A stretch of DNA of 56,435 bases from Christensenellaceae bacterium (GTDB lineage: Bacteria; Bacillota; Clostridia; Christensenellales; UBA1242), in contig JAISHI010000028.1 in NCBI GenBank assembly GCA_031262595.1, positions 1 to 56,435 on the forward strand, read 5' to 3'. Under the pieces are notes generated by a model. The model ran no database searches and was not told the origin of the DNA. It worked only from the letters and a program-made list of their open reading frames with translations. How positions within the stretch are numbered: position 1 is the stretch's first letter; every line of letters begins with the position of its first letter. Shown here piece after piece: positions 7,918-54,029 of this stretch. The translations under genes were made by a program, and so were the position numbers.

Positions 7918-8355
7918 TTACCTGTCTTTCTCCGGGGTATTTTCTTCGCCTTCTTCTTTTCTCCGACTCGCAAGCTTGTCGTGTATTTCACTACCTACCC
8001 AAGTGCCCACGCCCGAGGCCGCAGCTGCCCCTATGATACTAGTAAATCCTAGCACGCTTTCAGCATAACTTTGCATGAAGTCATCAACCCTTTTATTCAC
8101 CTCTGCTTCCGGAATACCCTCAGCACGCAATTCATTTCTTTTTTCATTTTCTAAATCCTGTCTGTTACCAACTGCATTCCCAACGCCCAGACTTGCGCCC
8201 ATAACGCCCAAACCAAGCATAACGCCCGCTGCTGTCCCGCCTGCTTTTTGAACAACCTTATTTACTTTCTCACGAATTGTTTTGGCTTTTTTAGGCGATG
8301 CAGTTTGACCATCTCTTTTCCCCACTATGCTTTTCATATAGTTTTTAACACCCAT
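7918..8355 (-). CDS. Small Gly/Ala-rich membrane protein, unknown function
   Basis: SD AAGGAGA; two hydrophobic glycine-rich segments. Confidence 0.65.
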   Translation of the reverse strand: MGVKNYMKSIVGKRDGQTASPKKAKTIREKVNKVVQKAGGTAAGVMLGLGVMGASLGVGNAVGNRQDLENEKRNELRAEGIPEAEVNKRVDDFMQSYAESVLGFTSIIGAAAASGVGTWVGSEIHDKLASRRKEEGEENTPEKDR

Positions 8356-8395
8356 TTTAAAATCTCCTTTTTTAGAAAAATAATTTTTCTATTTA

Positions 8396-8424
8396 AGAAT
8401 AGACCCCCCCCCCCGATTTGTCAA
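8396..8424 (-). promoter_or_regulatory. Promoter with poly-G tract in spacer (candidate phase-variable)
   Basis: Minus strand: TTGACA(8424-8419)-AATC-G11-TC-TATTCT(8401-8396); spacer 17 bp. Confidence 0.75.
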
Positions 8425-8504
8425 GTGTTTTTTACAAATTCGGCAATTTGCCCGAATTTAATCTTTAAATTGACGAACGCGGTTTTTCGCGCTAAGATAA
8501 CTTT

Positions 8505-9185
8505 ATGAAAATAAATACCGCAACAAAAATAACAATCGTTCGTATAGCCCTATTGCCGTTTATTTTGGCGATTTATTTAATGTCGTTTTACGGCGTTAGC
8601 GCGTTTATAACGGATTATGGGCGGCTTATCGCGATGGCGCTCTTTATAATCGCGGCGGCTAGCGATTTCGTTGACGGATATATCGCGCGAAAATATAACC
8701 AAGTAACGGACCTTGGCAAACTCCTCGACCCAATCGCCGACAAACTACTCTCCTTTCTCGGGTTTATACTAATCGTTTGCGACCCGATTTTAAATAACGG
8801 CTCGGCTGGGCTCGCGTTCGGCGAAAACGTTTCGGGTATCCTTCCTCTTTGGCTCGGCGTTCTCGCAATTTCTATCGCAACGATGCGCGACTATATAGTT
8901 AACGCAATCCGCCAAATCGGCGCGCAAAAAGGGCTCGCAGTCGCGGCGATTCCGTCGTCGAAAATTAAATCTACGGCGCAATATTTCGCAATTTCGTTCT
9001 TTATGCTTTATTCGTTCTCGCTCGGTATGGACTTCCTTAACGGCTGGCTGAAAATCGTTGTTCAAGCCCTTTGTTTAGCCTTTTTAATCCTCGCAACCGC
9101 GCTCTCGTTCTACACAATCTTCGACTTCCCGCTAAAAAACAAGCACGTTTTCGCGGCTAAAAAGGAAGAAACGAATGCAAAATAA
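8505..9185 (+). CDS. pgsA: CDP-diacylglycerol--glycerol-3-phosphate 3-phosphatidyltransferase
   Basis: CDP-alcohol phosphotransferase motif ASDFVDGYIARKYNQVTDLGKLLDPIADK. Confidence 0.93.
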   Translation: MKINTATKITIVRIALLPFILAIYLMSFYGVSAFITDYGRLIAMALFIIAAASDFVDGYIARKYNQVTDLGKLLDPIADKLLSFLGFILIVCDPILNNGSAGLAFGENVSGILPLWLGVLAISIATMRDYIVNAIRQIGAQKGLAVAAIPSSKIKSTAQYFAISFFMLYSFSLGMDFLNGWLKIVVQALCLAFLILATALSFYTIFDFPLKNKHVFAAKKEETNAK

Positions 9186-53399: not shown

Positions 53400-53960
53400 T
53401 TATTTTATACTTTCAGCTTCTGTGCGTTCTTGCTTAGCCTTCATCTCGGCCGCATGCTCAGTCTCAACCTTGCGTAATTTCTTATATGTTTCAACTGCAA
53501 CCTTGTATTCTTCAGTGTCCTTGTCATACGTTGTGGTTTCATCGCCCTTAATTGTACTATACCCAACAGCCTCAAACTTAGGGTCCCAATAACACTGACT
53601 CATGCTAGATGTTTTAACAAGCTCGTCATTTCTAAACTCACCGCCTGTTATAATATAGTTGTCCACAGAACTAACGTCCCCTTCGCTCATTTTGCCATTA
53701 GCGTCTTTATCATACCATTTTAAAATACTGTACTCGGCATCATCCGTTGTGGCTAAATACACAGACGCGTATTCATTAGGTTTAACTTGGGTGTATCCTG
53801 CTTGAATAAACTCATTTAATTGCTCTTTTGGTGCAATTCCAGATCCCCATAACGCGCTGTTTAATTTCTGTTCCAAAATCCCATCCCCATCCGCATTGGC
53901 TTGCCCTATGGATAATAACGCCGCAGTGGCAGTTGCCAAGATAATGTTTTTCTTTTTCAT
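53400..53960 (-). CDS. Secreted protein with an EF-hand-like loop
   Basis: Signal peptide MKKKNIILATATAALLSIGQANA; DKDANGKMSEGD; SD AAGGAG. Confidence 0.68.
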   Translation of the reverse strand: MKKKNIILATATAALLSIGQANADGDGILEQKLNSALWGSGIAPKEQLNEFIQAGYTQVKPNEYASVYLATTDDAEYSILKWYDKDANGKMSEGDVSSVDNYIITGGEFRNDELVKTSSMSQCYWDPKFEAVGYSTIKGDETTTYDKDTEEYKVAVETYKKLRKVETEHAAEMKAKQERTEAESIK

Positions 53961-53999
53961 ATGAAACTCCTTATTTAACTAATTTTTTTAGTTAAGATT

Positions 54000-54029
54000 A
54001 GTATAGCCCCCCCCCACCGAATTTGTCAA
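54000..54029 (-). promoter_or_regulatory. Promoter with poly-G tract in spacer (candidate phase-variable)
   Basis: Minus: TTGACA(54029-54024)-AATTCGGT-G9-C-TATACT(54005-54000); spacer 18 bp. Confidence 0.78.

Follow-up and report, generated by a model that had tools for sequence, protein, structure and literature searches.

Promoter phase variation in Neisseria meningitidis was reportedly described for porA, with a poly-G tract, by van der Ende in 1995 and for opc, with a poly-C tract, by Sarkari in 1994. In these two cases the homopolymer resides between the -35 and -10 boxes and its length sets their spacing; most SSR switches in Neisseria are coding frameshifts. To our knowledge, phase variation via promoter spacers has been documented chiefly at a few loci of pathogenic bacteria. 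The closest precedent for the locus studied here is provided by Treponema pallidum, where transcription of TP0126, encoding an OmpW homologue, is best when the poly-G tract in the spacer results in 17 nt, and where the poly-G of tprL ranges from 7 to 11 and varies within isolates (PMC7864442). A multi-locus arrangement is found in Mycoplasma hyorhinis, in which the promoter region of each vlp surface gene contains a homopolymer of its own (PMC10502178).

The window, i.e., the whole stretch of 56,435 nucleotides that was analysed, contains a promoter of this kind upstream of gene 8355-7918 (Table 1). The preliminary description had read it as TTGACA-AATC-G11-TC-TATTCT with a 17-bp spacer, and this is exact for the minus strand from 8424 to 8396. 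Just as in porA, opc and TP0126, a homopolymer of at least eight residues is thus located between recognisable -35 and -10 boxes ahead of a gene, and tracts of 8 to 11 G are of a size at which slippage is expected. The likeness to the homopolymer-spacer logic of porA and opc that had been pointed out earlier is supported, with TP0126 as the closer precedent. Not only TP0126 but also tprL and tprE/G/J resemble the present case in a promoter poly-G of similar length and, putatively, in surface-type products. On the other hand, T. pallidum is an experimentally tested spirochaete pathogen, whereas we deal with an uncultured member of the Clostridia with a reduced genome.

Table 1. Features of the two poly-G promoters in the window and of the single long G-tract of the genome that lies in a coding region.
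Feature	Position	Strand	Remarks
-35 box TTGACA	8419-8424	minus	first promoter
Linker AATC	8415-8418	minus	between -35 box and G11
G11 homopolymer (GGGGGGGGGGG)	8404-8414	minus	inside -35/-10 spacer
TC	8402-8403	minus	between G11 and -10 box
Spacer	8402-8418	minus	4+11+2 = 17 bp
-10 box TATTCT	8396-8401	minus	TATACT, TATTTT, TATAAT or similar at other loci of the genome
Shine-Dalgarno AAGGAG	8364-8369	minus	same spacing and RBS at most other poly-G loci
Start ATG	8355	minus	opens ORF 8355-7918, 145 aa
Controlled gene	7918-8355	minus	145-aa orphan, two Gly-rich hydrophobic helices
-35 box TTGACA	54024-54029	minus	second promoter, TTGACA-AATTCGGT-G9-C-TATACT
Linker AATTCGGT, then G9	54007-54015 (G9)	minus	second promoter
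Spacer	54006-54023	minus	18 bp
-10 box TATACT	54000-54005	minus	second promoter
Gene of second promoter	53400-53960	minus	186-aa orphan with signal peptide (MKKKNIILATATAALLSIGQANA)
G10 tract	G000:C6:47706-47715 (L008)		coding, lipoprotein gene with Listeria-Bacteroides-type repeat

With regard to the controlled gene, matches to the 145-aa protein were found neither in PDB, Pfam, NCBIfam and PHROGs nor among 100 related genomes, and relatives were also absent from phages (searched at the DNA level), plasmids and viral contigs. The promoter, queried with the number of G residues left variable, was likewise not detected in viral contigs. Its classification as a Gly-rich membrane protein holds for the two glycine-rich hydrophobic stretches, while the protein has neither a signal peptide nor an N-terminal hydrophobic segment, so that a surface location is only putative. 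The AlphaFold model is all-helical and of low confidence (pLDDT 56).

The surroundings of the promoter exhibit further features. An inverted repeat (AAATTCGG/CCGAATTT) at 8436-8459, between two divergent promoters, is a possible operator; no counterpart is seen at the other poly-G loci inspected. The divergent pgsA-like gene (8505-9185, plus strand) is preceded by TTGACG-17-TAAGAT at 8470-8498, only a few bases before its ATG, which suggests a leaderless mRNA, and the poly-G genes C16:15188 and C19:7705 likewise look leaderless. A strong hairpin in the 5'UTR of the 8396-8424 locus was rejected (z -0.06).

The tract at 8404-8414 most likely belongs to a set of phase-variable, sigma-70-type promoters that extends across the genome and in which slipped-strand events would change the spacer. 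The genome, as rebuilt from fetched stretches (811 kb in 29 contigs, a MAG of 83% completeness), contains 12 runs of at least eight G on either strand, compared to about 4.4 expected under a first-order Markov model. The sequence TTGAC, the core of the TTGAC(A) box, occurs 2-12 nt upstream of 11 of these 12 runs, compared to 149 of the 12,979 shorter runs with 3-7 G, which amounts to 1.1% (binomial P 5e-21). It precedes none or one of the A, C and T runs of at least eight residues, and no C-tract of the same orientation follows it. For the 106 promoter-like sites located ahead of ORFs, the maximum G-run length per spacer has a bimodal distribution, with 0-4 G in 96 cases, 6 G in one and 8-11 G in nine, and long G-tracts therefore constitute a separate class that is nearly confined to promoters. 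According to our own reading of the boxes, the spacers of the 11 loci measure 16, 17 (five loci), 18 (three loci), 19 and 20 bp, a spread around 17 bp as expected if the loci were in different states; ordinary promoters of the same genome peak at 17-18 bp. Compensation between linker and tract length was rejected, as a negative correlation of the two in this genome was not significant. The twelfth tract resides in a lipoprotein gene, in which the frame entering G10 ends soon afterwards and the repeat goes on in another frame; it resembles a phase-variable gene of the coding type that was assembled out of frame. Unlike the situation in Neisseria, all long G-tracts but one, which is coding, are located in promoter spacers here, and unlike the T. 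pallidum set, the 11 loci in 0.8 Mb are all of the spacer type.

In the possession of several genes with one independent homopolymer each, the set resembles the vlp system of M. hyorhinis. The latter features poly-A and a single paralogous lipoprotein family, whereas here the tracts are poly-G (poly-C in some relatives) and the genes mostly unrelated: ten of the 11 products have no Pfam family above cut-off, the exception being an amino-acid permease, and most are orphans. A hydrophobic N-terminus is present in six of the 11 products and a lipobox in two; five, including the 145-aa protein, have no N-terminal hydrophobic segment, which counts against the phase-variable reading.

The same arrangement is widespread among relatives. 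The nearest named ones are Clostridia MAGs whose proteins are on average about 55% identical, a value that rises to about 70% for one of 692 aa and for others. The genus Ca. Caccopulliclostridium (gallistercoris) has been assigned to GTDB family UBA1242, order 4C28d-15, in release 95 (PMC8035907), and the window's genome should belong to the same family. In a comparison with one genome per species, the pattern TTGAC-N2-12-G8 was detected in 152 of 299 UBA1242 genomes, representing 29 of 42 genera, vs. 13 genomes for the reversed control, and in 122 of 396 genomes across the order. A longer tract enters the raw pattern counts once per shift, so the number of genomes is the reliable measure. In several genera the linker is constant and specific to the genus (TTGACAAAAATGC, TTGACATTTTTTCC and so on), and TAAAAT or TATAAT comes immediately 3' of the tract. 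Of 59 proteins encoded downstream in relatives, 48 start with a hydrophobic segment, compared to 27% of the ORFs in the window's genome. The downstream proteins comprise BspA LRR, DUF6273, Listeria-Bacteroides repeat, PARCEL/DUF285, collagen-like, pectate-lyase-like adhesive and lectin-domain families. In some relatives (L074, L096, L098 and similar), the poly-G promoter has on its 3' side an inverted repeat, sometimes comprising the -10 region or the start site, as if the transcript started with a terminator-like stem. With a stricter pattern, the matches listed (L101-L218 among them) stem from gut Clostridia, Saccharibacteria, Bacilli, Treponema, Streptobacillus (S. notomytis, two within 1.2 kb), Helicobacter sp. 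and Streptococcus (S. suis), although those in GC-rich genomes may be due to chance. MutS is encoded in the window's genome and in 287 of the 299 family genomes, and loss of mismatch repair as a driver of slippage was therefore rejected.

Tract length differs between related promoters, the comparisons being between species or between loci of one genome. Sixteen promoters with common TTGACAAAAATGC carry G8 (five), G9 (nine) or G10 (two). In relative genome G202, similar promoters contain G9, G10 and G12, and the two pairs aligned (86% identity) show no gap outside the tract; in two species of genus g14, G9 vs. G8 is the sole gap in 110 bp at 96% identity. Among 35 aligned pairs, which are not independent of each other and in which some sites are included twice, tract length is unequal in 15, about four times the per-column gap rate elsewhere.

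The alternative that fares best, albeit an unlikely one, is that the G-run is a fixed promoter element, either a rigid spacer G-tract or the site of a lineage-specific activator, that marks a regulon and changes its length only incidentally. Several loci indeed share a TTGACAAA(T/C) context and leaders, and the linker is almost invariant inside one genus. In addition, motif TTTGTGCANAATGACGAA is present in seven copies in the genome, three of which are located just upstream of poly-G promoters (G000:C5:6960, C5:21492 and C17:11507), i.e., ahead of three of the 11. Genus g36 of the same family, on the other hand, has many poly-C spacers of the form TTGACAAAT-C9-GNG-TATAAT; the genes behind them encode lipoproteins as well as orphans that are membrane-bound or soluble. 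As poly-C takes the place of poly-G here, it is the slippery repeat and not G itself that seems to be kept, and a G-specific element was rejected as the main cause. A fixed element is also difficult to reconcile with unequal tracts in otherwise similar copies, with the abrupt onset of spacer tracts at eight residues, almost none having five to seven and eight or more being the range of frequent slippage, and with the position of the one remaining long tract in a coding frame.

The second alternative, duplicated cassettes that spread with multigene surface families and carry the tract as a passive passenger, is very improbable. It draws on the only other run of at least eight G in the window, the one in the second promoter (Table 1): the product at 53960 and that at C5:7069 have the leader MKKKN(I/V)ILATA and much of the 5'UTR in common, while their promoters differ, with G9 and an 18-bp spacer in the former and G11 and a 20-bp spacer in the latter (tract C5:7011). 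A weak hairpin (z -1.67) is located at 53945-53996. Relative genomes G013, G152 and G335 furthermore contain many near-identical promoters. Most loci of the window's genome, however, combine unrelated 5'UTRs and genes and share only boxes and tract, and linkers vary by genus while the tract is retained. Chance or an assembly artefact has next to no probability and is excluded as regards the presence of the tract: the position specificity (11 of 12) rejects a single chance tract, and the pattern recurs in about half of the independent genomes. Error-prone sequencing of homopolymers renders the exact count of 11 uncertain by about one residue.

Slipped-strand tuning of 8355-7918, as put forward in the preliminary description, is the reading with the best support, to which recurrence across genome and family adds, while the switching itself is inferred. 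Mispairing at runs of 8-11 G would alter the number of G residues and thereby shift the distance between -35 and -10 about its 17-bp optimum, such that the promoters would drift, each on its own, among strong, weak and off states. Tract length would then vary within a population and affect transcription. The prediction is an on state for the promoter of 8355-7918, which has G11 and 17 bp, and an off state for the sister promoter at C5:7011, which has 20 bp. Genes under control of the set would mostly be lineage-specific orphans, many of them with exported products, joined in relatives by large families of surface or adhesin-like proteins, and surface diversity within a clone would be the outcome.

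As far as our searches show, the mechanism is of a known kind, while lineage, scale and the near-exclusive use at promoters are new; among open-licence papers, none was found that joins phase variation with the name of the order or homopolymers with that of the family. Nearly every long G-tract of one reduced genome is a promoter-spacer tract, and the device is present in about half of a gut family, often upstream of surface proteins, which makes it probable that its carriers randomly switch their surface proteins on and off in the manner of certain pathogens. It appears fairly likely that uncultured gut Clostridia, namely this entire family and parts of its order, control much of their exported proteome via independent homopolymer-spacer promoters. 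Together these would make up a combinatorial regulon for phase variation: the slippery repeat would be retained at promoters but mostly kept out of other places, and separate lineages would have given rise to the poly-G and the poly-C variants. Existing metagenomes could tell directly whether random diversification of the surface takes place in commensal Clostridia.
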